A stretch of DNA of 64,000 bases, from the NCBI GenBank assembly GCA_008477525.1, contig SPDT01000001.1, forward strand, positions 62,001 to 126,000, in the 5' to 3' direction. The position numbers and the translations under genes are program-made. Below are positions 5,188 through 64,000 of this stretch, one piece after another. The stretch's first letter is position 1. Each line of letters opens with the position of its first letter. The notes under the pieces are model-generated. The model did not search any database, had not been told where the DNA came from, and saw only the letters and a program-made list of their open reading frames with translations. The stretch is from Hypomyces perniciosus (Eukaryota; Ascomycota; Sordariomycetes; Hypocreales; Hypocreaceae).

Positions 5188-6106
5188 GTAGATTGAGGTT
5201 GATTCCAATGCAAACCTGCTGTATTGCATTCTCTGCCTTGTTTTTTCCCCTGCAGTAGCGGGGTAAGCTATGCATGCTGTTTGAGCCTTGCAAAATCTAT
5301 CCTCTACTTTTTCCTCCTGGTACTATTTCTCTGCGGGTTTCGTGGGGGTTAGTAGCAAGTGAACATGAAGCTCCTTTCCTCATGTGCTCAGTGTTTTATC
5401 TTCAGTTGCTGAAGCGGTGCCTGCTTTCTATGGCACGAGTTGTTTGGTCTAAGTTGCTGGGATTCGTAGGGATAAAGGGTTAGTTCCTCCTTTGCGGTTA
5501 GGTCATCTGAGACAAATGAGACGGTGAACTTGCTATCGACTGCGAAATCGACATTTGGGTACAGAGATCACTGTTGGATTCATTTGGAAGTTGCTGCGTG
5601 GCCTCTGTAGCCGGTAAAAAGCCTGATCGCGTTACGCGTCTCGGCATCCTCATTTGGACGGTGCATCAGATCATTCTCGCTCGACTCTATGGCTTTATCT
5701 TCATAGATGGCGATGCGGTGCATATGCGCGCTCAGTATCGTCTGTTGGGAGAGTCATCAGCGCATTTATTTTCCGTCATTTCTGTCGACCTTCTAGTACT
5801 CGAGATCTCTTTCAATTTTTTCATCATGGACGAGTGGCGCATGTATATTCTATAAGGAAAAAGCTGCTAATAACTACCGCGTCCTCACCCTCAAAATCCG
5901 AATCATCGAACTCCCAACATCCAGGGTCTCCAAGTTCCAATACCCCAATGGTCAAAATCCGCAAGAGGTGGGGGAGTGTGAATGGCCGCTCGTACAGGCT
6001 GGCTATCCAATGAAACCGAGATAATAGGAGCAGGTTTGCCGATTTTCAGTCCCCGCGTTGGGCGACGAGATGCATCTCCCGCTCATTGTTGATCATCCCA
6101 TCGTCC
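5188..6106. other. Gene-poor stretch with a faint repeat copy
   Basis: About 5372-5455 resembles the end of the dispersed repeat found at 51.6 and 63.5 kb (shared block near GCTGAAGCGGTGCCTGC). The open frames at 5574-6013 match nothing I know and are not called. Confidence 0.4.
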
Positions 6107-6690
6107 AACTCTCCCCTGTAAAAATTCTCCCGCGCTAGCAGCTGTTATGGCTTGTTAGCGGAGCGGGGTATTTTGCAGGACCTACTGGCCTGTCTCTCCG
6201 CTAGGGCTTATCGGGTCCTAACAGCGCACAAAGAAGGAATTCGGAGAGCTTCACCTTCCTCGAGAGCTGGCCACAAATTCTGCGCAGCTCTGCTGCCAAC
6301 ACGTTACCTCGTAAGAGGCATAGCCAACACATCGTCTCGCAAGCCTCGGCCTGCCCTGAACCACTTGCTAGACCTCATAGAGGGCTCAGCAGCCAACACT
6401 CAGGTTTTTCCCCTCTACAAGGAAGGTTTTTCATCCTAGTGCCTAAATCCTAAGGCCCTAGACCTCGAATCATTTCCTTTATCCAGCGAAACGTCGCGAA
6501 CGGCTATAAGGTTAACACCTCCAGCTATTTTCTAGCAGCTTACTGGCCAGCTAGGCCGGTCCTGGGCTAACAGGACCACGTGGAGGTGACCCAATATCTT
6601 AGCGATAAAGACCTTGGCTGGCTCCTACCGACCTATTGCCCAGACGTAGCTTCTTGTATCTAGATAATTAGTGGTAAAAATTAAAAGAAT
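6107..6690 (+). mobile_element. LINE-tail-like repeat, copy A
   Basis: From CCAACTCTCCCCTGTAAAAA near 6110 to the AT-rich end near 6690 the sequence follows the inverse of 18451-19114 nearly block for block, including the block before the Cys-poor frame SSRAG, the segment CAGCGAAACGTCGCGAACGG and the end CCTACCGACCTATTGCCCAG. The last two blocks also occur in the 3' end of the LINE fragment at 17556-18450. This copy lacks the outer left end seen in the other one. It stops about 45 bp from the 3' end of the BTB gene. Its 95-codon open frame has no recognisable domain. I read it as a non-autonomous or 5'-truncated piece of a Tad1-type LINE family. Confidence 0.65.
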
Positions 6691-17555: not shown

Positions 17556-18450
17556 AACTCTGGTTGTGGAGCAGTCACATACTACAGAGCCAAAGCCCAA
17601 ACAAAGTACGGAACCCTTGCGAACTCGGAGGTGTTCGACGCGGAAGCCACAGGAGCCGCTAGAACCATTGAGATGGCGGCAGACTTATCAAGAACTGACC
17701 GTAGAGTCAAAGACATTCACGTCTTCCTGGACAACACCTCAGTGGTCAAAGGACTCCTTAGCGAAGCGCCCGCCTCCTCGCAGAGGGAGTTCCTCCGCTT
17801 CCAGAACGTCGCAGAGAAACTGGGCCCCCGCAGAGTGTTCGTCTCGTGGGTACCAGGGCACAAAGACGTCCAAGGCAACGAAATTGCCGACAAGCTCGCC
17901 AAAGCAGGAGCAGCAGCTCCCCCCCCAACAGGGCTGGAGCTCACTTGCCCACGTCAAACGCTGGGCTAAAGAAGAAAGAATCACCATCCAAGAAAGATAC
18001 TGGGAGTCGAACGCTCCGGAGAGCTATCTACGCTGGAACCTGGGGCCCCCCAATCCCCCGCCCCGTGCTACACAGGCTACTGGCCGAAAGGTCGGGACCG
18101 GAGACTTTCAGAGCTACCACGACCGCTTCGGCCACGACACACGATCGCAGTGCAGGTCCGGGCTACCCAAGGAACCAGGGCACTCTCTTTGCGGAGTGCC
18201 GCATGGTAAGGAGCTTCCTGCCCGGAACCCCCCCAGGAGAAAGCCCTATTACGCACTTACTAGGACCCAAGGGAAGCAAAGACTTCCAAAAGCTGGTGGA
18301 GGACGCAAGCCCCTATGGCCCCCTTCAAAACACAGACCGAAACCCCAACACATCTCCTTTGTCCGGCGAAACGTAGCGAATAGAGGCCGCTAGGCCTCTA
18401 GCTCCTATCGACCTATTGCCCAGATGAGGCTTATGTTTGTTTGTTTGTTT
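17556..18450 (+). mobile_element. 5'-truncated Tad1-type LINE, RNase H and C-terminal part
   Basis: Only the 3' part of a non-LTR retrotransposon is present, joined directly to the broken phosphoketolase. The frame 17631-17969 is an RNase H domain: EVFDAEATGA (acidic residues), IHVFLDNTSVVKGLL, and VSWVPGHKDVQGNEIADKLA with the final catalytic Asp. A shifted frame (17846-18376) continues with the C-terminal region of such LINEs, including PRPVLHRLLAERSG and HLLGPKGSKDFQKLVEDASP. The 3' end carries the block CGAAACGTAGCGAA, then CGACCTATTGCCCAGATGAG and three to four TTTG units. Frameshifts show it is dead. Truncation at the 5' end is what target-primed reverse transcription often leaves. Confidence 0.85.
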
Positions 18451-19114
18451 TAATATTAACGACCATAAGTAAGCTAGTTACACAAATCCCATCTGGGCAA
18501 TAGGTCGGTAGGAGCCGGCCAAGGTCGTTATCGCATCCATAGATGAGATATTGGGTCACCTCTATGTGGTCCTGTTAACTTAGAACCGGCCTAACTAGCC
18601 AGCAAGCTGCTAGAGAATAACCGGAGGTGTTGACCCTATAGCTGTTCGCTACATTTCAATTTATAAAGGAAAAAAGGTTATTTAAGGCTTAGGGCCTCAG
18701 GCACTAGGATGAAAAACACTCCTTACAGAGGGAAAAAACCTAAGTGCTAGCTGTCGGGACCTTTTACGAGGCGATGTAGTTTTCGAGGCCTCTCGCGTGG
18801 GAGGCAGTGTGTCATCGTCGGCAATACCTTTTGCGAGGCAGAGTGTCGTCTATTGCCTCTTACAAGGCAATATGCTAGCAGCAGAGCTGCATAGATGTCG
18901 TCGCCAGCTCTCGAGGGAGGTAAAGCTCTCTGAATTCCTCTCTCTTTATGCGCTGTTAGGGCCCGGTAAGCCCAAGCGGAGAGACAGGCCAGTAGGCCTG
19001 CAAAAATTACCCCGCACGTTAACAAGCCATAACAGCTGCTAGCGTGGGGGAATTTTTACAGGGGAGAGTTGGATGAGGCTTATGTATTTAGTTACTTAGT
19101 GGTCGTTGATAGTA
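18451..19114 (-). mobile_element. LINE-tail element with terminal inverted repeats, copy C
   Basis: This segment lies tail-to-tail with the preceding LINE. Reading the minus strand it repeats copy A at 6107-6690, with the shared tail CCTACCGACCTATTGCCCAG. Its outer ends are inverted repeats of about 38 bp: left TAATATTAACGACCATAAGT and, on the other strand, right TACTATCAACGACCACTAAG. A run of 19 A follows at 19114-19132. The 92-codon frame on the minus strand has no known domain. Terminal inverted repeats on a LINE-derived body are unusual; either two inverted tails make them by chance of insertion, or the unit moves as a non-autonomous element. Confidence 0.65.
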
Positions 19115-46723: not shown

Positions 46724-47638
46724 ATGAACCTTTCGCATTTCCTATATCACACTATGCTTATTGCATTTGTAATGAGCATGCTTGCTTCTGTCCTTCGGGG
46801 CTTTCGAGTCTATCTTCAGACTACCAAAGGCTCTGGACTGCTTGAAGCTTGCCAGCTTTTGAGTGTCAAGTACAGCCTTGGATTCTTGATCCTTGTCATA
46901 AGCCAGATCGCCATATCCCTCGGAACTGGGATTGGATTCTTCATCCTCACTCTCATCAAGAGTGACGTCTGGTTAGTTTATTTGTTCAGTTCGATCGTGC
47001 TTTCAAGTATGATCGGCCAGGTAAGCGGGCCAAGACTTGGGTACTTTCTTCGTTGCTGACGATTGTAGTGTGCTTGGGCAGGCGGTTCTTGGTACCCAGG
47101 GCAGCGTGCGTTCAAGCCGATCTTGTTAGCTGTCACCTTGGCAACTTGTGTTGGTCTCTTTCTTGGCGGTGTTATCCTCGGAGCCAAACGGCCGATAGCG
47201 GGCAGCATTACCGTTTCAGCATCTGCTGGCTTATTCCGTGTCTGTATGGCATGTGAGTGGATGGTGTTTTTTTCTAGAGAAGCGCCCTCATATTCAGGAG
47301 CCGTTTTACACACGCCAGATCGCGGGTCATCTCTTGATTCAGGTTCTCCTTACTCTTGGCGTCATTGTAGCCTGTACTCTGGGAGAGGTACATGCCGACA
47401 CTTGGGGGCTTATTCCGATGCTAAGGTGCAATATGTTATCAGTAAGTTGTCCACACCTCGAGGGGAGAATTTCTAATAATTTCTAATATTTTAGATTATC
47501 TCTGTTGCCTATGGCCTCCACGATCTTTCCACTGAACTTTGGCTCATAATGAACCGCCGGAGTAGCTTATCATGGCTCTGGATAAAGTTAAATTTTGGCA
47601 CATCTGTGGACAATATGGAGCTCGGGCTGCAGGGTTAA
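46724..47638 (+). pseudogene. Multi-pass membrane protein, poly-T frameshift
   Basis: Exons 46724-47020, 47069-47441 and 47495-47638 with clean GT-AG introns of 48 and 53 nt. Hydrophobic segments: LIAFVMSMLASVL, SLGFLILVISQIAISLGTGI, GFFILTLIKSDVWLVYLFSS, ILLAVTLATCVGLFLGGVIL and HLLIQVLLTLGVIVACTLG, giving about six or seven membrane spans, roughly 270 residues. The only defect is in exon 2: seven T at 47267-47273 put CMACEWMVFF into the wrong frame; with six T the product continues LEKRPHIQEPFYTRQIAG to the end. I do not recognise the family. A homopolymer error or a recent single-base mutation are both possible, so the gene may really be intact. Confidence 0.5.
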
Positions 47639-47817
47639 GACGAGAAGAAGAGTCGAGACTCTTTTTTTTTTAAAAATTACTATTTACGACCAATATGTAT
47701 CTACATACAGAACCACTTTTTGATGTGCCCCCGATCTAGAAGCACAGCCAGTTACAAGTTCCTGCTACGTCTAGAACACTTCCTAGCACAATTTGGTCGT
47801 CTATCTCCGTTGCAGGG

Positions 47818-48555
47818 TTAGGCAAGTGAGGGTCGACGCACGCTCCGTGTTTGTCGAGGCTTAGAGCGGGTGGCAACAGTCTTACGCCGCTTTCGTGGCC
47901 TCAAAGTCATATTGTGTGTATTGCGTAGTAGTCGCTTCCTGCCCCAGCCCTTGGAGCGCGTGCTTTTCCTTTTCTGCCATTGATTGGCCACGGCTAGATC
48001 CGGTGTTGATTTTTGACTGTCTTGTTGACTGTCGACTTGATTAATGTCAGTGAGGTGCGCTTGAGGATGGCAGTATTTAAGTTCAGAGGCTTCTTTCCAT
48101 GGTGTTAGCTGATACCGGGGGAAACCACAATGCCGTCGAGCAGAAGATGTACGTTCCCTTGTGTCGGCGTTGTTACCCGCCAGCAATCAGCCTCAGGAAC
48201 GAGTTCTCCATAATGCTTGAGAACCTCCGACCTAGCATCTGAGACCGCTAAACAAAGTCGCTCAGTCTTGAAGTCATGGATTCGCCCCCTGAAAGCTGAA
48301 GAATAACTCACCATCCGTCGCTGCCTGTGAGTTACAGTCGTCGCCATCGCAATTTGTCTCAGGCTAAGTTCTTAGTATCGAACACCGTGAATGGGGTACA
48401 ATTTCGACTTCGACGCGGCATTGTGAATGGGTGTTTGCTGGATTGATGTGCTTGCTTAACAGCAACTCATCAAGCGAAAAGTTGGGCTGTGCTGCGGAAC
48501 CATCACACCAGTTCCAAATCTTCTCATAAGATTCGGCCCTTTCTGCCCTGGACAT
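47818..48555 (-). pseudogene. Unknown gene, interrupted; basic C-terminus
   Basis: From ATG 48555 the frame reads MSRAERAESYEKIWNWCDGS and DELLLSKHINPANTHSQCRV, meets a TAG near 48364, then continues ETNCDGDDCNSQAATD into a 50-nt-class intron and on to ARSEVLKHYGELVPEADCWR, VTTPTQGNVHLLLDGIVV. A following frame (47818-48140) is strongly basic: KRKSTRSKGWGRKRLLRN and LRPRKRRKTV, like a nuclear or DNA-binding tail. The TAG falls where CAG would fit. How the third part is joined is not clear. No family is recognised. Confidence 0.35.
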
Positions 48556-48582: not shown

Positions 48583-49474
48583 TGTTAAAATGGAAGTTCG
48601 AGCAAGCGCTCATGACACAAGTGGATGTTGCCGAAGCGTAGATAGTGTTGGTGTTAAGATGGGGCAAGATGTTTCTTTTATGCTAGGCCTCTTCCAGTAG
48701 GCATACGAAGGGTCTAAACCGATATACCTGTCACCTGCAGTAAGATTGGTTTCGGTTATCTAGCTATTTGCTTGTATATTTGTCTGGTTTTTGCCCAAAC
48801 GCGCAGAAGAACCTAACCAGCGTAATAAGGCCAATTCTAGACTCATTTGCAAGCATAGTCGGAAAAAGAGCGGGATGGAATCCCAATGGCCTTATAACCA
48901 TGCAACGCTAAGCTTCTACTTTTTATTACATAGTCAAGTCCTATGTATGTACTTCGTAGCTCATGAGATCACACACGACTTCTCTTCTTTACCACAAACA
49001 CCAGCGCCACTACGACCTGGGTGATGTTGGTACGGTCTCCACAAGCCCGTAGCTTGGTGTAGCTGTTATGAGTAAATTGCTGGCTCTTCCCATTTCATGA
49101 ACTAAAACACTACAATAATAAGGGATACAGTAGCAACTCGACAGCAAAAAAGGCGTTACAAGATCTGGTATTACAGGTTTCAGTAACGCTACATTTTGTG
49201 AATATAAAATGGGATTGTGTAAATGAGACTTGCAGTTGTTGGATCCAAGATACGAAGATATGAGTCACGCAACCCCTTAAACTGACGTAATCATCTGTTT
49301 CAGATTGAATGCATTAAATGACAAGAACTGAAACGAAGGCGGCGATTGGTACCTATCAATGTGTAAAAAGCACATGCTTACACAGTGGTATGTTGTGTAT
49401 TGTAGCTTATCGGCTAGATCATTTCTCTCCCATAATTACCAATGACTGGCGTCAGCAGCTCGTGAGACAGTTGA
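48583..49474. other. Intergenic, nothing seen
   Basis: No supported gene or repeat. Confidence 0.5.
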
Positions 49475-52955: not shown

Positions 52956-54867
52956 TTTCCCCCTCGGCGGCTCTATGTATAGTTAAGAAACAGGCAATGC
53001 CTATTTGTTGACTGTCGAGGCTTCCGCTTATGTGCCTACCTTGTGTTATCAAGAGTAATCCCCGCGGCTCAAGGCCACTAAATGAACAATATCCGTTTTA
53101 TGACTTTTGGAGCACGAGCCATGTAAGGCCAGAAGTGGACAAGTCTACTCCGTATGCTGAGAGGATCTTCGGCCGAAAGGATATTTGGCATTTGTCACTG
53201 GGTCGATTGTATCAAGTCGGTATTATGTAACCCGAAGGCCTGACCAATCCGATGGTCAATGTCCCTGTGGTCCGATCCAGAACGCGCAAGAGATGTCGAA
53301 CCAACAGACGCATCAGGATTCTGCTCACAGGTGGTGGCATATGCCCCACCCCCGCACGCCAATAGCCTGTTCCAAAGATCGGAGTTGCTGCCAGAGACAA
53401 GGACGAGCCTGATTGGCCTGCGGGCAGAGTAAGCCTTTCCTGTTCTATTCGTCCTCGTCCAATTCCGGGCGATGCGACTTCACATAGCTCCATAGTATGT
53501 ATCGCATACCAATATGTATGGTGTATGACGCGATTCAATTGACCTGTATTATGTATGTGCTGTATGCAACTGATTCTTACAAATAAAGAGTTGTGTCATC
53601 GGTCGACATCAATTCTGTCCACCACTTTACGCACCGCAAATAGAGGAACAGAAAGAATAGTACACAGCTCTGGTGTTTGTAGTCACATGATGTCTCACGT
53701 GCTCCCTTTGGGCTGCTTAATCATTTTCCTCTCATTTCTTCTCTTCAAATACAGTATTGCTCATATTCGGTTTCCTCTTTTGTATGTAGACTCTGTTTTT
53801 TTAGAGACTAAATGCATGGACCAGCAGGTACATAAGGATACCTATCTATACCTAGTTGAATGGAACATCCAGAAGTGGCCGAATTTAACCCTAGTAAAAT
53901 TGCGCTGGAGTATATTTTAGGAACAAACTGGCGACAAAGAATGTCACCCTAAAGTACTGGTAAGTAAATAGCAAATTGGACAGTGCCGCCCCATGCTGGT
54001 AGGTACAAAAGACACCAAGAGTTCGCAAAATAGCTACTTTATTGGCGTTCACACTTGGCAGTGCGTAATTAATCGTTCAATATACATAGATTTGGAACCA
54101 TTCTTATTGATTTAATGACGGGTAAAGCGTGAAGTAAGAGCCCCAAAGAACTGTTGCAGTACTGTGACTCACAAATTGCTGCCTATATTCTGAGGTTGCA
54201 ACTCCCATCGCTGGTGCGTCAGTGTTAGGAAATAGTAATACGCACTATGTGGGTCTTTCCAAATATTAGGACAGTGTAAGTGAAAGAGGAAGCCGAATAC
54301 GAACAGCACTGTAGCTTCAATTGACTATGTATCCTTACGTTCAGCGATGCTCGTGTGGATCCCTGCTATAGTCTGGCATTCTTTAGCTACCAGAACCTGT
54401 GTGCCCTCTTCCTTATAGCCTCGCGGCCGGGCTGATAATTGATAGCCCCAATCGCCCATGGGACTTTTCCCTTCACTATTTGCAAGCAGGGTAACTACCA
54501 CTATTTATGATATGCATTTCCACACACCTTTAATAAAACACGTGACCTAGATATATATATAGGAAGCAGACTAATACAAAACGGGTGCCATGGGAACAGC
54601 TGGCCCTGTTTCAACAATAGAGCGAAGTGAGTCGTCTTTCAGGACGTATTAGTTGTTTGCCAGACCCTATTAGCCGAGCATGGCTGCGGGCAAAGGGATA
54701 CATAAAAGAACGGCCGCTTCCAAGTAGGAGCCAATCAATCAATTAACCACTCTAGAGGAAGGTCAGAGATCAATACAGTCACCCTTCTACTCTCTACCTA
54801 CTACCCCCCCGCTCGTCTACTGATACATATGATCCTCCCAGATTCTCTCACTCTCCTCCGTGTTGCA
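52956..54867. other. Gene-poor region, 1.9 kb
   Basis: Frames at 53030-53538 are unrecognised; the rest shows no gene. Confidence 0.4.
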
Positions 54868-56408
54868 TCAGTCTTTGACGCAATGAAACAGGTCATTTAT
54901 GGTAAATTCACGATCCAGTCCACTTTCACTTGCCTCACTCGTTCCCCACGTCGGATTACTCAGCGGGACGCATCCTTCCCCCTCGCCTTCGACCCAGGCC
55001 AAGACACTATCCACTGCTTCTCGAGGTGAGTTCCTGTGCTCGAGCAGGAATGCCAGGATCTGCGCCGGGCTGAACATCATTTCAGGCACTCGGTCAACAA
55101 AACTCCTTGCCAATTTCTCAATGACATGATTGTCATCTCGGCTAGCCCTTCCAGCTTCGACCTCACTCGTTGTGGGCCTATAGATGAAGCGGAACAGCCT
55201 CTCTAACATGTCTCGATTGGCGAACCCGAATTCGATCTTCTTGTCTACCCGACCTGGCCGAATAAGAGCTTCATCAAGATGCTCAATGTGGTTTGTCGTC
55301 ATGATCAGAACGCGGCCTTCTTGGGAAGCCACACCATCCATCGCATTAAGAAGGCCAGAGAGTGTCACAGACCCGGGTTTAGGCCCTCGATATTTTTCAC
55401 TGACCTCTTCATCCGCACGGCTTCGTGTAGTCTCGATTGCATCAACATCCTCTAGCAAGATGATGCATCGTGAGGGAAGTTTCCGAAGTAGCTTGTCAAG
55501 AGTTGCGTTATCCACAGCAGCCAGGTTCAGAACATAAATGTCGATGTCAAAATACCCGGCGACTGCAAAGCAAAGGCTCGATTTGCCGGTCCCCGGCCGA
55601 CCATGTAGTAAATAGCCACGCCGATATGGCAGGCCACGGTCGGCATACCAGCTCCGCGCTTTAGGGTCGAGATACTCTTCGACATCTTTCAGGAAGTCCT
55701 TTTTGACGTGTTCCGGTAAAACAATTGTGTCCATATGTCTTCGATCCCGAGTTATGGCAAGAGTCCAGCCATCTCGATTCTCGTAGACTGCGGTTTTCCC
55801 TAGTGTCTTTTCCTCATATAAAGTCTTGCATTCGTCGAGAAGCTCTTTTAGTATTCTTGGAGATGTTCCGAAACAGGTAACCGAGAGTTTCTCATCCCGC
55901 CATGATCTGGTCTCTTCGGAGCGTACGCAGAGAAGCTGGCCCTTGTACCAGAAGAACTTCTTCGTGTTCCATGGCATGTACTGCAAAACCTTCTTTGTTG
56001 GTCGGCCCTGCGCAGAACTCTCAGATTCCTTCCCCAGCGCCACAAGAGTCGATCGGGTGCGTGTCGCAAAAGACTGAGATTGAATCCAGCTGTGAAGCAT
56101 GTCGTGTGTCTCATCTCGGCCGGATATATGAAATGTGAATGCTGCGAACAGTCAGGGCTATGAATGGAAGAGTAGATTACAGAATCAGACGAACTGAGGT
56201 AATCTTCCATGAGGCACATGATGTGTTTGTAGGCAAACTTGAGCAGAAAGGCGATCAGGCCACAGGCGCAGAGCAGTTGAGCACCGACATGAAGGTTGCC
56301 GGATGCTAGAGGATGAATGTAGCTCAACGCAACACCCAGGCCAGGGAAGAACATGTCCAAGAACGACACCTGAGAATAAATGGTGCCAAAGACGGTATTG
56401 GATGCCAT
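54868..56408 (-). CDS. BCS1-like AAA ATPase, 495 aa
   Basis: Two exons, 56195-56408 and 54868-56141, give a continuous frame. The N-terminus has a hydrophobic segment (LLCACGLIAFLLKFAYKHIM, near residue 55), then the BCS1 N-terminal domain (FTFHISGRDETHDMLHSWIQ). The AAA module follows: Walker A HGRPGTGKSSLCFAVAG, Walker B CIILLEDVDAIE, VLIMTTNHIEHLDEALIRPG with the arginine and RVDKKIEFGF. BCS1 helps insert the Rieske iron-sulfur protein into mitochondrial complex III, but fungi carry several paralogues, some linked to self-recognition, and this is probably one of those rather than the housekeeping copy. The donor used (GTTCGT at 56194) is weak; the stronger GTAATC at 56180 would shift frame. 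Confidence 0.82.
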
Positions 56409-57438
56409 GTTTGGTTTTATAGTTATGTCTTTAGTCTCAAGCGAAGGTGCGCTTCCGAGCCAGGACGGGCAAGATGTGGTGCGGTGGGTGGTTTGAGTAT
56501 GTGTAACTGAGAGTGAGAAGCTTTGTCAACGACAAGTTGATCGCACGATGGGAGAAGTTCAAGATTGGGAGTGAGGCAAATGTAAAGATAACAGTTACCA
56601 ACTAGCACGAGAGCAAGCCTTGTCGGGAGGACGTCGGTTTATATAGACGTTTAAACCAGTCCCGAAAGACGACACATGGCATTGTTCTCTCCATCGGAGG
56701 AGACAACAGTCATCTTGCCTCTCTCGAAGCTGATCGAGTAGGGTAGATCGGCATCAGCGAGCCAACACGCATCCCACTCTAATATCAGGGGTACATAAAT
56801 TTCAATGCTCAAATGCACTATAACAGAAGTACAAGCAATTGACCTATACAAATAGCTACATTATATTTATCGCAGCCATAGTTCGTTCTAACAGGCTTTT
56901 TGGACCTTATTTTAAGGCTATCCACATTAAACTACCTATATTATTAGCCGGCTGTTCTCGCTCATAGCAATTAATTTATATCTAAAGGATATTGTTAAAC
57001 TGATTATAAACAATAAGTTCTGGGTTATCTATGCTAAGGTATCGCGAGAATGAATTATGTATGTAATGATAAGTGTAGTTGGTATTGACTCTGTTAGTAC
57101 CTTGGTTCTATAACGTACCAGCTAGCTTACAGGGGTGATATGGGGCTCGAGACCCTTTGTCCCTTCACGCAATGGAAGGGAAAATGGGCTGCTTGCAGGT
57201 ATGAACTTGGCAATGTGGGTGGACAGCTGAGGAGGAAGCTCATGGCTAATAGGTCGGCATCTGCGAGCCATCTTGATGAACTCACATTTTCTGCAAGTTA
57301 CACCGGAATGGGTGAATTAATCTGGCCTACATGTAACCAGCAATCCAGGGGAAATTGGGGTACACGTGTTTTGTTGATACGACATTATCTGACCTACAAT
57401 CCGCCCCTGTACAGGCCATAATGCCGTACCAAAAAGAG
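56409..57438. other. Intergenic, AT-rich, 1 kb
   Basis: The stretch 56850-57120 is very AT-rich and looks like an old mobile-element remnant without a readable frame. No gene. Confidence 0.4.
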
Positions 57439-57608
57439 TATCACAGAAGTGTGATGCCTGTCCGATAAAGTGGAATGCTATCACAGAATCGTGATACATA
57501 CTAATCGCCATAACTATCACGAAATTGTGATGCCTGCAATGGCTTTCAGACATATCACACAAATGTGACGCTTGCTAGCGTAGTGGAGTCAATCACATAA
57601 TTGTGTTA
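57439..57608. promoter_or_regulatory. Array of five 18-bp palindromes at 36-40-bp spacing
   Basis: Five near-perfect inverted repeats: TATCACAGAAGTGTGATG (57439), TATCACAGAATCGTGATA (57479), TATCACGAAATTGTGATG (57515), TATCACACAAATGTGACG (57553) and AATCACATAATTGTGTTA (57591). Starts are 40, 36, 38 and 38 bp apart. The arms TATCAC and GTGATA are kept while the centre varies, and the DNA between copies is mostly unrelated. It ends about 190 bp before the ATG of an intact gene. The pattern fits sites for a dimeric DNA-binding protein, or the relic of a palindromic repeat; neither is proven. Confidence 0.75.
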
Positions 57609-57800
57609 TTGCTAGTCCAATACACACACCGTAATTTATGGATAGCAAAACGGTATGTTGTCACGTGCATATTGCTCCCGGCAAAAATAGACGGTGAGGC
57701 TCTACTTATTACTTTAGTCATGGGAGGGGTTTACAAGCGGGGAACTCCAATCAATACGACAAAAATTCTTCGTGTCATCGACTGTGCGTGCATTTTTCAG

Positions 57801-58603
57801 ATGCCGCCAGAGTTCATGGAGTTAACCAAACCTTCACTGGATACTGCAAAGAAATCTCTCCTCGAGGAGGGATTCATTGATCTGGGCGATCCAACGGTGG
57901 GAGAGCAGGTCTGGAAGTTTGAGCAGAAGAGGTTTCCCTTCTACACGGAAGATGGCATGGACTTTATAATGCAACACATCCTTGGGGATCCAGTAAGTAG
58001 GATGATGTACTCTATACCGGTATCTAGCTCACCTTCAGATCATACAATCAGCTGTACAATGGTTCTTCGAGGACAAGAGTTGCGTTCTTGCACATTGCCT
58101 GAGATACGGAGCGTTACCGGGACATATTGAAAGCTTCTTGGGTGGTCGGGATGCTGGTCGACGCGCTCTGGTGGTCCAGCTATTAGCTAAAGAATCCCGC
58201 GTGGATTACTATGCCAAATCCCATTTACATGTGTTTTCGGCTGAGAAAGGGGCGAGGTTAACGCGCGAGCTTTCTCGGTCCGCACTTCAAGAAGCAGGGT
58301 GTGAAGCCCACGACAGGGACTTCGATATCGGCGGGTCGTAAGTTCCGACATAATATTGGCGTTGCAACTTCTAACCCTGGCAGAGTGATCCTCGACGCCC
58401 GACTTGGTCGCGAAATTCGGGCAGGATACGCAATTACCGCTATATTCATAACTGAGGATCTAGTCGCTCGATTCAACTTGCCTCCAATGCTCCTTCCAAA
58501 TCTGCCCAGATTGAAACATAAGGTTGCCGAAATGCAGAAGCGAAGCAATAACATAAGGCTCAATTTTGCATTTGAGGGGTCCACCGGAGGTACAGACACA
58601 TAG
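57801..58603 (+). CDS. Fungal orphan-family protein, 236 aa
   Basis: Three exons, 57801-57992, 58039-58337 and 58384-58603, with GT-AG introns of 46 nt each and agreeing phases, ending in TAG. The product begins MPPEFMELTKPSLDTAKKSL and contains SAVQWFFEDKSCVLAHCLRY, ESFLGGRDAGRRALVVQLLA, AGYAITAIFITEDLVARF and RLKHKVAEMQKRSNN. This family is widespread and multi-copy in Eurotiomycetes but has no assigned function to my knowledge; nothing resembles a catalytic motif. The start at 57801 is preceded by a pyrimidine tract and an AG, and the open frame extends upstream, so an extra 5' exon is possible. It is intact, converges with a C2H2 gene and lies just downstream of the palindrome array. Confidence 0.75.
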
Positions 58604-58868
58604 CTCCCAATCACTCGTGAGATGGAACAGTCCCGCCGCCTGTCTCCCTGGACCACTGCGGGAAATTTAGAGTCGCAAGGATAGGTGCAATCTCAATATG
58701 GTCCATAATTACGGCTGTCTCGTTCATGGGAGTGGCGTAAGGTGCCTGCGGCATTATAAAGTTTGTGGAAAGTGCGGGAGTATCAAGGTTTGGCAACGAA
58801 GTATCCAGCGGCGTGGGATAGGGTACCCCTGTATTGCAACATTAGCTCGGCCAAGGTGCAAGAAGACG
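58604..58868. other. Short spacer between convergent genes
   Basis: 265 bp, no feature recognised. Confidence 0.5.
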
Positions 58869-59595
58869 TTAAATACCAATGCCATTTTGAAGGGTAAAGT
58901 CGGTTGTAATCGCCACATTACGAGGATCCAACTTGGGTCGCCGAACTGGTCGTGCCTCTAAGCTGGGAAGTGGTCTTTTCTTTCCCTTTTCCCATGCTTC
59001 CAATTCCTCATCGGCCCGATCGCGTAATTCTTGGCATGTTTCTTTTATATACGCAGCCTTTCTCTTGCATAATGTGTTGTGTTGTTCATCGTTGCGCTGT
59101 TCGATATGCCTAATGAACTGGCTGGGCAGTCTAAAAACCTCGTGACACGCCACACAATCTTCAACACCTTCAATATCTGCATTAAAGAATTAATAGCGAC
59201 TTGTAAATAAGACATTAGCTAACATACGTACTAAAAAGTGTCGTCGAAGTGATTGCCTTGATCCATATTCTGGGTGACCATAACAATCCGGATGAGGACA
59301 AACACGCGACTTGCGGAGATGCTTCCCTATTTCGGATACAGAATTACCACCCTTGTTATATTGTCCAGCGTCGAAGTCATTTTGGTTGTCACCGTCGCTG
59401 GCGATTGTGTGAGCTCGGCAACGTTTAGCTTCGGCGAGGTGGTAGCGTTCTCGAGACTGAATGGAAGTCAGCTTTGCTTGCCACAAGGTGCAAGGTACTA
59501 ACCCGATATTCCTCGAGATGGGCAATCAACGCATCACCTGTTCGAAAACGTGCAGTGCAGGCGCATTCTTTCTCCTGGTAGATCTCATGCGACAT
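58869..59595 (-). CDS. C2H2-type zinc-finger protein, 209 aa
   Basis: Three exons, 59503-59595, 59228-59456 and 58869-59176, sum to exactly 210 codons across GT-AG introns of 46 and 51 nt. It begins MSHEIYQEKECACTARFRTG and DALIAHLEEYR, a first Cys/His unit. The middle contains VCPHPDCYGHPEYGSRQSLR then RHFLVH (Cys-x4-Cys...His-x3-His), and next EDCVACHEVFRLPSQFIRHI (Cys-x2-Cys...His). A long helical, charged C-terminus follows (CQELRDRADEELEAWEKGKK) with a basic KRPLPSLEARPVRRPK stretch, possibly nuclear targeting. Family known from Eurotiales accessory genomes; target unknown. The frame is intact and ends in TAA. Confidence 0.8.
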
Positions 59596-61215
59596 GTTGG
59601 TAGTTATGGCGCCTTTGGAAACAAGGTACTCGGGGTTGATGGTTGATCAAGCATGATTATGTAGCTCATCGTCGGACGTGGCCGCTCTTTTATCCGCGTT
59701 GTGGCCACCAGAAGCAGCCAATCAGCGTTCCTAGATACTGGCGATATAATTGGCTCCAAGGCTACTTCCACTGCACCTGGCCTTAAATACCTCAGAAGTT
59801 CTTGATGGTCTTTAAGCGGCAACATCTATATCTTCCCTTTACTCACTCGACGGCGAATCTGACTCGAATTTCTGGAAGAGATATGTCTATTGCGAGAGGC
59901 TTTGGTCAATTCCCGCTCGTCAATTCAATGGCTAGATGCGAAACTTGCTGTGACAACGGCTTCAAAGACATGCAATGCCCAACCTGTGGCAAGCCAGCCA
60001 CAGGATAAGAAACATGGAAATTCACCAAAGCGACTACATTTTTAATCTAGTAGTAGTATATTTTCCAACGTTTCATAAAGACTTAACTAATCGTTGCTAG
60101 ACAAGTGAAGAACTATGTTTTTTTTCTTTTTGGTGGGAAGTACCCGGCTGATGCATGTTGGACGTCGGCGTTGACAAAGCCGAATCCGCATTTCAAGGCC
60201 ACATCAGGGTACCGGATGTTAAGGACTATAGTGTGTATACCACCACGTGTCCTGGAGACAAGTGTTTGTTTCATGATTGCGACCCCGACATTGAGAACTT
60301 GACTGCATTAAGCAGACTGATACCATGTTTATCTGCTCATCACAACAACCTTCCCGCGTCTGCCAGGCGCCAATTCTGTCCTGACAGAACAAGACGGGGA
60401 AGGCGTCAAGATAATACGAGTTTCACTTCAAGATCAGATCTGTTATGTAATGCACTTAGGAGCAGGTATCTATTAAATACGCAATATGGATCGGTTCCAA
60501 AGTACAAGACGTAGGGCGAGAAAGCGAAGCGACGCCGCGTGCATAGCTTCCTCTCTCAAACGAGTTGACACGTATATCTTTCTGCACGTGACCTGCCACT
60601 CACAGGAAACGAAGTCGGACGGCCGGTGGTATCCGTTCGATAAGGTTTGGTGAGTATTTTTGATCCTTTGATGTCTCAGGCGGGGGGGTATCTGGTCACG
60701 GGCCTGGGCGTGAACAGATTACTATCGTTCCTTGATCCCTGTAATAGCATGTCTTCCCGTGGTCAGTTAGTTCGGCCGCGTACCCGGCCCAGGCAAGGTG
60801 CTGCAGCTTGCGAGGCCAGTAGCTCATACTTGAGTTCATCCAAGCAGTCACTTTGGCAATAACGATTAGACAAGACATCGAAGCATGTCGCATCGTTGCT
60901 TGATCATAAAGTCCCCCAATTCTCCCTCTTCTGTTATACTCTAATCAGTACCACATTGTCCGGTTGAGGCTACTTCTTGTTTATTGATTGCCAAACTACA
61001 TACATCGGAACTAACCCTGGTTACTATCCAAACTGTTTGACTTGCAACCCCTTCACTACGGCCATTACCAGCAAGCAGGTTGGTAAGAACACTCGGAGGC
61101 ACTGTGATCATCACGACTGGCTAACCTAGACGTTTCACACAAATATTTTGCTCTTACTCTCTATCGACTCATGCGCCACGTTTACATTTGCGGACTTATT
61201 GTCGTCAACGCATAA
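59596..61215. other. Gene-poor region, 1.6 kb
   Basis: Plus-strand frames with Cys-rich stretches (for example ARCETCCDNGFKDMQCPTCG near 59930) are short and unplaced. No gene is supported. Confidence 0.4.
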
Positions 61216-62652
61216 TAATGGAGAGTCCGGAGACCAGCACACCCAATTCTCTGATTAATGATGCATATCCTCCTTCAAACCGGTACCAATGCATGCCGGA
61301 TCACGTGGAATACGTTTCCAAAGTTGATAAGTGCGTGCATGAAATGGCAGCAGCTATCAATCAGCTCGTTAGGAGAGCTGGGGATGACATGAGGCAGATG
61401 GACACGCTACGGCAGGATGTGATGAGGCAGTCGAGCGTTCAAGACAAGCCAAGCAAGAAAAAATAATGATGGAGGAGAGGCTCCGGATATTTGAGTTGGA
61501 AACGCAGAAGCACTGCGGCGTATACGCGAAACACAAGAGAAGTACCAGGAATTGGAAGAGGTCATCATGGAAAAGGACGAACAAATCCGGCAGGACTGGC
61601 AGGCGCTGAAAACAGCAGCAGACTCAAACAGCAAGCTCGAGCAAGGAACAAACTTGGCGATTGCGTTAGTAGAAGAGACACAACAGGCTGCGAAGGCTTA
61701 TGAAGCGTGGGCCAATAGAGAGATCGAAGCGAAGGAAGGGGCTATGCGAAGCGCTGACTTGGTGAATAAAGAAAAGGTCGCTGCGCTTTCTCAGGCTCAG
61801 AGAGCAAAGGAGAAAGCCAAGGAAGCAGACCAAGCCAGAGAAGTAGCGGAGAAGGTCGCTGTTGAGGAGAGACGTGCCAGAGAAACAGCGGAGAAGGTTT
61901 CTGTGGAGGGGCCAGGAGCGAGGCAGAAACAGCCAAAGCTTCGGCGGAAGAGAAGGCGCAAGAGTTAGAACAAAACCATGCATGGATGGTCAAGTCGATA
62001 AGGGAAGCAGAGGCACACGCAGAACAGGCGAAGTTAGACCTGGCAGCGGAAAAGGCCAGACAGCAGCCCCATACAGTGGCAACCGTCGACCGGGCGGGCG
62101 AGTCAGCCATCTCGGTCAAGCAGCAAAGGAAGGGGTTCTCCGGTCCAAACAAAAGATCACGACTTTCTACATCAACCGCACACAAAAGGATAGGGCTCCA
62201 TAGCCCGGAGGCAACGTGCTATGACGAGCGACTAAAAAACTTGGCGTAGGATCTTGAGCGTGTGGTTGAAGATTACGGGGGACAGGAGACGATATATGCT
62301 CTGTTCGCGTTCAGCGCCGACTTGATTGAGGTTGGCAGGGTGGAGAGTTTGTGAGACTTCTGAATCTTCGCTCTTTGTCAGGTGTGTTCGCCACACTAAG
62401 GAGATAGTGGTCACAATATCTGATGTCGTTTCCCTCTCGCGCAAGCTCTACAGAACAGACATCGATTTCAAAGCCGCCAAGGAGCTGTTGCGTGCCAATG
62501 TATTGCAAACGATGTCTGGGCGACAAGCCGAAAGGTTTATGGGCAAGGAGACTCAACAAGTCACTCTATTCCGCTGGAAAGACCTTGGGGATATCCTCAA
62601 CAAGGTTGCAGAAGTCTACCATGATAGAGATACAATCACAGCTACTGTGTGA
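61216..62652 (+). pseudogene. Long coiled-coil protein, broken
   Basis: Successive frames make one protein: MESPETSTPNSLINDAYPPS and EYVSKVDKCVHEMAAAIN, then after a shift at an A run (about 61460) ERLRIFELETQ, ELEEVIMEKDEQIRQDWQAL, a long Ala/Glu/Lys coiled coil (AQRAKEKAKEADQAREVAEK), a second shift near 61910, HAWMVKSIREAEAHAEQAKL, a TAG at 62247 where CAG would fit, then DLERVVEDYGGQETIYALFA and a C-terminal part VVTISDVVSLSRKLYRTDID. It ends at 62652. The family is not recognised; the coiled coil recalls the tail of DUF3723 genes but the rest does not match. Several lesions make it a pseudogene. Confidence 0.6.
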
Positions 62653-63507
62653 AGCGAGAGTCCACCTCCACGTTCTTGGAATGAATTGTTATTGGGCATC
62701 GGGTTTCTTTTCGTTCGCGTAAATCAATCGAGGTATTGTAGGCGGCCTGCAACCGGAAGAAAAATTCTCGAGAACTGTTTTAGTAGTTTGTCCAATAAAG
62801 GAAGGGCAGCTTGACGGGACTTAGCGAGGGCTTTTGTCTGTCTTTAAGTTACTATCTGGATACTTGCATTTGGAATTTAAGTACACGGAAGCCGTCTCGT
62901 CACTTCCGATACAGTGTCTGTCAACAATTTTCAATTTTGTTTCATCTGCCATGGTGAGGAGGCCGATACTCGCATGGTCATGCGGTCTTTCTGGTGGTAA
63001 AAAAGCGATAATTACGAACCTCGGTGTCTGGAGCCATGAAGCAGGTTTGGCGACAGGTTTGGCGACAGGTTTGGACAAAGCGTTTGCACGACGGCGGGAG
63101 TATCTTACACGGGGACTCAGCTGTGTTCCGCAACTAAGGGTGGTTCCCGAGCCACCAGTCACACGCCTCGTCCTCGGTGGCCGCGTCGGGAAGTTGCGCC
63201 CACCTCTCATCGCTGTCGCCGTAGTGGCTTTTGGCGATCTTCCAGATTCGCTTCGCTCGCCCGTTCCATTTGTGGCCTTCGAAATATTTCTCGTGGAATC
63301 CTCCGACCGCGTGGTGGGTGCAGTGACGAATCTCTTCGAACACGCGCCGCATCTGTTTTGAGTCCTGCTGCGAGGCACAACTGTTAGATCAAAAAGAAGA
63401 AAGTTCCTTCTTGTTCTTGAAACCAGTGCTAGGAAAATGTCAGATGCAGACAATATAAAGAACAATTTGTCTATTGCTGCCACGAAGAATTGTGGTCGTT
63501 GTTGACG
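62653..63507. other. No supported gene
   Basis: Minus-strand frames at 62821-63516 include HEKYFEGHKWNGRAKRIWKI and a threefold 12-bp repeat near 63051-63075 (GGTTTGGCGACA), but no family is recognised and two frames compete. Confidence 0.4.
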
Positions 63508-63785
63508 ATGGTACAATTTACAATTTATTTATTAACGCCCGGCGGCTTTGGCCGGAAGGGTAACTTTAGATAGTGTACATGTGTGTTTCTCAAGCTTTGC
63601 CATGTATCCTAAAGCCGATATAGTCTCCTTTTCCTGTTTGTGCTATTTTGCGCTCCTTATTTCTTGCGTTTTCTCGTAGCTAGTAGTTTCATTAGCAAGC
63701 CGGCTTGGAGGCAATTCTACAAGTGTTCAGCGTCCTATCTTCGGCGGCCGAAACGTTGCCTGCTGTTCGTCCCACAAGGTGGTGA
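63508..63785 (+). repeat. Dispersed 300-bp repeat, copy at 63.5 kb
   Basis: Follows the 51585-51876 copy throughout (CGCCCGGCGGCTTTGGCCGG, then CATGTGTGTTTCTCAAGC and TTCAGCGTCCTATCTTCGGC). Some positions differ, so the copies are old. It may be the 3' end of an unseen mobile or multi-copy unit. Confidence 0.75.
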
Positions 63786-64000
63786 GTGTAGGTTGAGTCA
63801 GCTGTAAGGTGGGCCTTTGGTACTTGGAGGCTGTGGCCATCTCGTGGCGAGACCGCCCTGGGTGCGAGCCGGGATATGGATTTCTGATCTCTTGACTGAC
63901 CGACATGCGCTTCCGTCCTCTCGAGCCAGTATACCAACTCCTTAAAGCAATCAGCCAACGATTGGTGAAGCCCGGTTGCGAGCCGGACCCGATCCTTTCT

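Follow-up and report, generated by a model that had tools for sequence, protein, structure and literature searches.

A local array of five palindromic sites, candidates for binding a dimeric protein, upstream of an intact gene in Hypomyces perniciosus

Introduction

Promoters are known to carry homotypic clusters of palindromic sites, and the usual reason for a two-fold symmetric site is a dimeric DNA-binding protein. The closest fungal examples, those of zinc-cluster, AflR-type and bZIP factors, resemble the locus described here in having several two-fold symmetric sites within ~200 bp upstream of a gene. To our knowledge, the core of the present sites, ATCACAnAAnTGTGAT, matches the site of no fungal factor. 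The portions accessible to us of the literature on ascomycete palindromic or tandem arrays, and on TATCAC/GTGATA in fungal promoters, hold no such array that we recognised; judged by title, the papers listed for the latter mostly concern primers or constructs. The accessible portions of the literature on homotypic clusters in filamentous fungi hold nothing on fungal promoters, and a search on palindromes in fungal transposable elements returned no paper.

The array lies in a 64,000-nucleotide stretch of H. perniciosus DNA (the window), to which all coordinates without a prefix refer. An earlier note on this window had described five inverted repeats upstream of a gene and suggested selection on sites for a dimeric protein, or a palindrome-based element.

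Results

The five palindromic sites lie on the forward strand at 57439-57456 (TATCACAGAAGTGTGATG), 57479-57496 (TATCACAGAATCGTGATA), 57515-57532 (TATCACGAAATTGTGATG), 57553-57570 (TATCACACAAATGTGACG) and 57591-57608 (AATCACATAATTGTGTTA), with starts 40, 36, 38 and 38 bp apart, just as had been noted. Measured against TATCAC-N6-GTGATA, sites 1 to 5 carry 1, 0, 1, 2 and 2 mismatches, the outer arms being exact in site 2. The columns ATCAC, the central AA (columns 9-10) and GTG are identical in all five sites. At each of five further positions, the first T, the inner A (column 7), the inner T (column 12), the 3' A and the 3' T, four sites agree. Since the central AA is invariant and the A of column 7 and T of column 12 are nearly so, a better form of the unit is ATCACAnAAnTGTGAT, a palindrome of 16 bp that all five sites fit. 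Changes between sites break the symmetry of the palindrome and, judged by eye, are not compensated. The site centres are asymmetric, and the orientation in which they are found is the best fit among 16 assignments. The centres had been said to differ; they do so only in part, the middle AA and the orientation being common to all. Mean pairwise identity is 85% in the arms, 60% in the centres and 19% in the middles of the spacers.

The spacers (22, 18, 20 and 20 bases; 57457-57628 on the forward strand when the 20 bases 3' of site 5 are included) are alike chiefly at one edge. Their first five bases, in order CCTGT, CATAC, CCTGC, CTTGC and TTGCT, are 42% identical versus 25% in shuffles (P 0.016), and their last eight 30% versus 25% (P 0.17). 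Gapped similarity of whole spacers also exceeds that of shuffles (P 0.005), mainly through the first five bases. Three flank columns are kept in four of five sites, two on the 3' side (C, T) and one on the 5' side (A). The claim that the spacers differ thus holds for their middles and overlooks a weak likeness beside the palindrome. The site spacing, described before as 3.5-4 helical turns, comes to 3.4-3.8 turns at 10.5 bp per turn and is no whole number. Together, the orientation, the centre and the 3' flank that the sites have in common suggest that one unit was duplicated in tandem, an origin that the earlier note had discounted.

The downstream gene has exons at 57801-57992, 58039-58337 and 58384-58603 on the forward strand, with intron places common, by eye, to a paralogue at C3:4584226. 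A homologue search gave 13 proteins at E <=0.001 among 507 candidates, and all 13 were aligned. The gene had been called an intact orphan; it is intact, and orphan status is rejected because homologues occur in several other Sordariomycetes and a paralogue in the same genome. Sources of the homologues include Hirsutella minnesotensis, Bombardia bombarda, Fusarium keratoplasticum, Fusarium sp. AF-6, F. fujikuroi, Apiospora marii, Rhypophila and Diplogelasinospora. By eye, 11 of the 13 homologues and the paralogue begin at the second methionine, 57816, which is more likely to be the start than 57801. The array would therefore lie about 207 bp upstream of the gene, not about 190 bp as first reckoned. 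A double-stranded beta-helix of the phytanoyl-CoA-dioxygenase type is predicted for one homologue (P0002). The aligned homologues mostly have HxE (GHIE) at the expected HxD position (by eye), and none of the invariant or nearly invariant alignment columns beyond position 121 holds a histidine (by eye). Given these two features, the iron-binding HxD...H triad may have been lost in this family. Pfam gave no match to a phytanoyl-CoA-dioxygenase-type family at E <=1 for the exon pieces or for P0002, P0003 and P0010, the three of the 13 homologues that the scan took in. A profile search against solved structures returned two weak ribosomal-protein matches alone (E 0.4 and 0.62), which we read as chance. 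With the predicted fold, no Pfam match in the members scanned and a triad that seems degenerate, an unlisted family of fungal pseudo-oxygenases is possible.

On its other side the array faces a BCS1-like AAA ATPase gene (main open frame 54868-56151, reverse strand), so that it sits between two divergent genes. The BCS1-like gene is part of a multicopy repeat reaching ~56448. On C8 and C5, six long further copies of the stretch 54700-56448 are 87-96% identical to it, and eight of 12 further matches stop at one point, 56448 or 56449. At seven loci bearing copies of the BCS1-like region (L034-L039, L041) we found no palindrome clusters of three or more, and an eighth (L040) has clusters of three of a different, GC-rich palindrome type. 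Beyond the downstream gene lies the open frame, probably the last exon, of a reverse-strand gene (58869-59189) with one weak C2H2-like finger. Its convergence with the downstream gene is as previously described, and its assignment as a C2H2 regulator is weak (PF00096, 13.5 bits against a cut-off of 25.2).

The array and its gene are part of a duplicated block of ~10 kb, C3:116783-126696 versus C8:1052480-1062423, 97.5% identical, which occupies 54783-64000 of the window and extends past its end. With its flanks (361 bases), the array has one further genome match, C8:1055083-1055444, at 98% identity. The gene of the C8 copy is broken: it carries a stop codon and has lost two bases. Three substitutions and one insertion distinguish the two copies within the array, and one of the substitutions changes an arm base of site 2 in C8, from C to T at CpA. 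One in three is the chance expectation (60 arm bases in 170), and comparison of these three substitutions reveals no sparing of the arms. The duplication therefore gives no sign of purifying selection on them.

Across the block there are 175 substitutions, of which 94 pair a C (or G) of C3 with a T (or A) of C8. These fall in a CpA context in 48 of 94 cases, compared with 12 of 54 changes in the opposite direction; as a baseline, A follows 695 of 2333 C's on one strand of the C3 block. The composition indices of the two copies hardly differ (TA/AT 0.78 and 0.83; (CA+TG)/(AC+GT) 1.20 and 1.19). The C8 copy looks as if it had been hit by mild repeat-induced point mutation. Also within the block, at 63512-63813, is a 300-bp repeat with ~30 further genome matches among those listed. 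It is related to C3:128002-128309, and because the latter ends in ATTGTA repeats, the window repeat resembles the 3' terminus of a non-LTR retrotransposon.

Genome-wide, the motif is not enriched: allowing up to two mismatches, and including the array and its C8 copy, there are 133 forward and 126 reverse matches versus 165 and 174 for a backward control. Exact TCAC-N6-GTGA pairs at distances of 14-40 bases are limited to the array, its C8 copy and a two-site place at C3:3737076 (control 0). Run with zero mismatches, this paired search recovered one pair in the C8 copy and three of the array's four neighbouring pairs, and it would miss arrays that have diverged. The place at C3:3737076 (L023) has no third site within 10 kb at up to two mismatches from TATCAC-N6-GTGATA, and we take it as chance or a minor cluster. 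In prokaryote genomes, the exact paired pattern matched 0 stretches. Around the paralogue (C3:4578001-4588000) exact TCAC-N6-GTGA is absent, and in the 1.5 kb upstream of it the best motif match still has five mismatches. The proposed link between the array and the gene family thus does not hold for the only paralogue that this genome yielded. A dispersed motif acting as a regulon operator is rejected, as there is no enrichment and paired sites occur at one further place only. The array is not scattered: its sole other copy found is in the segmental duplication, which includes the gene. The arrangement is confined to one locus and is no regulon-wide operator.

Another palindrome-bearing sequence, a dispersed repeat of ~820 bp, is found outside the window at C3:30668-31487, 47307-48027 and 48814-49347 (L017, L018). 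It has at least 61 genome matches (40 of 161 candidates scored) and carries rows of short GCCTC-N4-GAGGC palindromes. Six copies hold 11 GCCTC/GAGGC, four GTCTC/GAGAC and three mixed palindromes, and in some the arms co-vary to GTCTC/GAGAC. Two of the six copies, those at 6101-6689 and 18445-19076 of the window, hold none of these palindromes.

For clustering, we counted palindromes that had a 4-base centre and 6-bp arms, tolerating one mismatch, and whose arms differed at no more than two positions between sites. Under this definition the window has five sites inside 220 bases. In 60 simulated 64-kb sequences drawn from the local dinucleotide composition (56450-57800), the largest cluster was one in 28 and two in 32. 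When C3:1-146000 was scanned with centres of 0-10 bases, the largest clusters were the array (five) and the GCCTC-palindrome type (up to four per count), and in three block-shuffles of the same region clusters never reached three. The loose pattern TATCAC-N6-GTGATA occurs five times in 64 kb, and at least five times in eight of 100 shuffles; its bare count is not striking.

Discussion

We favour, at about even chances, a local homotypic cluster of candidate dimer-type sites, grown by tandem duplication and regulating the downstream gene. A unit of ~38 bp containing the 16-bp palindrome would have been duplicated in tandem to give five copies. The five copies have remained similar in the palindrome and for a few bases 3' of it, and have diverged in the rest of the spacer. 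A dimeric DNA-binding protein would then use the sites to control the gene ~200 bp downstream. Palindromes that are kept while spacers are lost favour selection on the sites, and the clustering beyond chance, with an intact gene that has homologues ~207 bp away, fits a site cluster. So does the C8 copy, where a broken gene goes together with one damaged site, a single event. Against it stand the lack of enrichment, of a paralogue array and of arm sparing between C3 and C8, the uncompensated site changes and a spacing that is not in whole helical turns. The suggestion of selection on dimeric-protein sites accordingly agrees with the contrast between arms and spacer middles, and is at odds with the paralogue that has no array and the motif that is not enriched.

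A more specific version, which we hold tentatively and with more doubt than belief, is an undescribed fungal operator: a dimeric regulator recognising ATCACAnAAnTGTGAT at five sites would control the phytanoyl-CoA-dioxygenase-fold gene, locus-specific and co-evolved with that one gene, with no regulon.

The alternative that survives best, possible if somewhat improbable, is a functionless, decayed tandem repeat in which palindrome-driven local copying, by slippage or hairpin gene conversion, homogenises the 18-22 bp core only. It is a serious rival because the evidence for selection is internal to one array, with no arm sparing, paralogue array or regulon beside it. The orientation, centre bases and 3' flank common to the sites are what such copying would leave; a motif unenriched elsewhere, a paralogue without an array, arms not spared between C3 and C8 and substitutions among sites that are asymmetric by eye all agree with it. 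Plain decay, however, should hit arms and spacers alike, whereas the arms are 85% identical and the spacer middles 19%, and Tandem Repeats Finder, even with the score lowered to 30, lists no array at this place. On these grounds, an array whose whole unit is not alike and a negative Tandem Repeats Finder result, a plain minisatellite is rejected, with the counterpoint that whole spacers exceed shuffles in similarity (P 0.005).

We consider it unlikely that the array is the remnant of a mobile element, one end of which carried palindromes bound by a transposase or recombinase. The surroundings are repeat-rich and segmentally duplicated, and elsewhere in the genome the ~820-bp dispersed repeat carries its own array of palindromes, of the GCCTC/GAGGC type. 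Yet the array and its flanks are found just twice, inside a 10-kb block that includes genes, and because the array is not dispersed such an origin is less likely. Among 11 inverted-repeat pairs of 10-18 nt found at 56449-57800, three are pairs of the array sites themselves, and we recognised no element ends. We found no sign that the array lies inside a transposon, and it is not scattered, so that neither objection foreseen in the earlier note applies. With only two places found in the genome, a high-copy transposon is rejected.

RNA hairpins within a long 5' untranslated region are very improbable. By eye, one site could fold into a ~6-bp stem closed by a loop of four bases, and the 220-base stretch folds at -56.1 kcal/mol, a value that has no shuffled control; the lowest-energy fold, however, pairs different sites together instead of forming five hairpins, stem-breaking changes are uncompensated, and Rfam has no match in 56400-58700 at E <=1. 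Chance clustering of unrelated palindromes is rejected with near certainty, for although the loose pattern is not rare over 64 kb, neither the 60 simulations nor the three block-shuffles ever reproduced such a cluster of similar palindromes.

Should a protein bind the sites, the locus would offer a compact, testable example of a fungal promoter gaining a homotypic cluster through tandem duplication, and the broken copy on C8 would serve as its comparison. Should nothing bind, it would warn that an operator array can be mimicked when one palindrome is duplicated locally. In both cases the feature belongs to a single locus, as far as this genome shows.

Set beside known systems, the array resembles a minisatellite in its head-to-tail copies of ~38 bp, single orientation and regular period, and is unlike one in that the likeness lies mostly in the palindrome and its 3' edge and the unit varies from 36 to 40 bp. 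With the ~820-bp repeat it shares a row of short palindromes (arms of 5 bp and mostly 4-base centres in the repeat); the sequences are unrelated, and the repeat is multicopy (at least 61 matches) whereas the array occupies one locus and its duplicate. The half-site of lambda operators resembles TATCAC/GTGATA, and lambda too has several operators in a row. The array differs in having a six-base instead of a five-base centre, a 36-40 bp spacing and a fungal setting, and we read the likeness as coincidence. From the homotypic clusters of fungal promoters, with which it shares its several symmetric sites close upstream, the array is set apart by a motif that is not enriched elsewhere in its genome.
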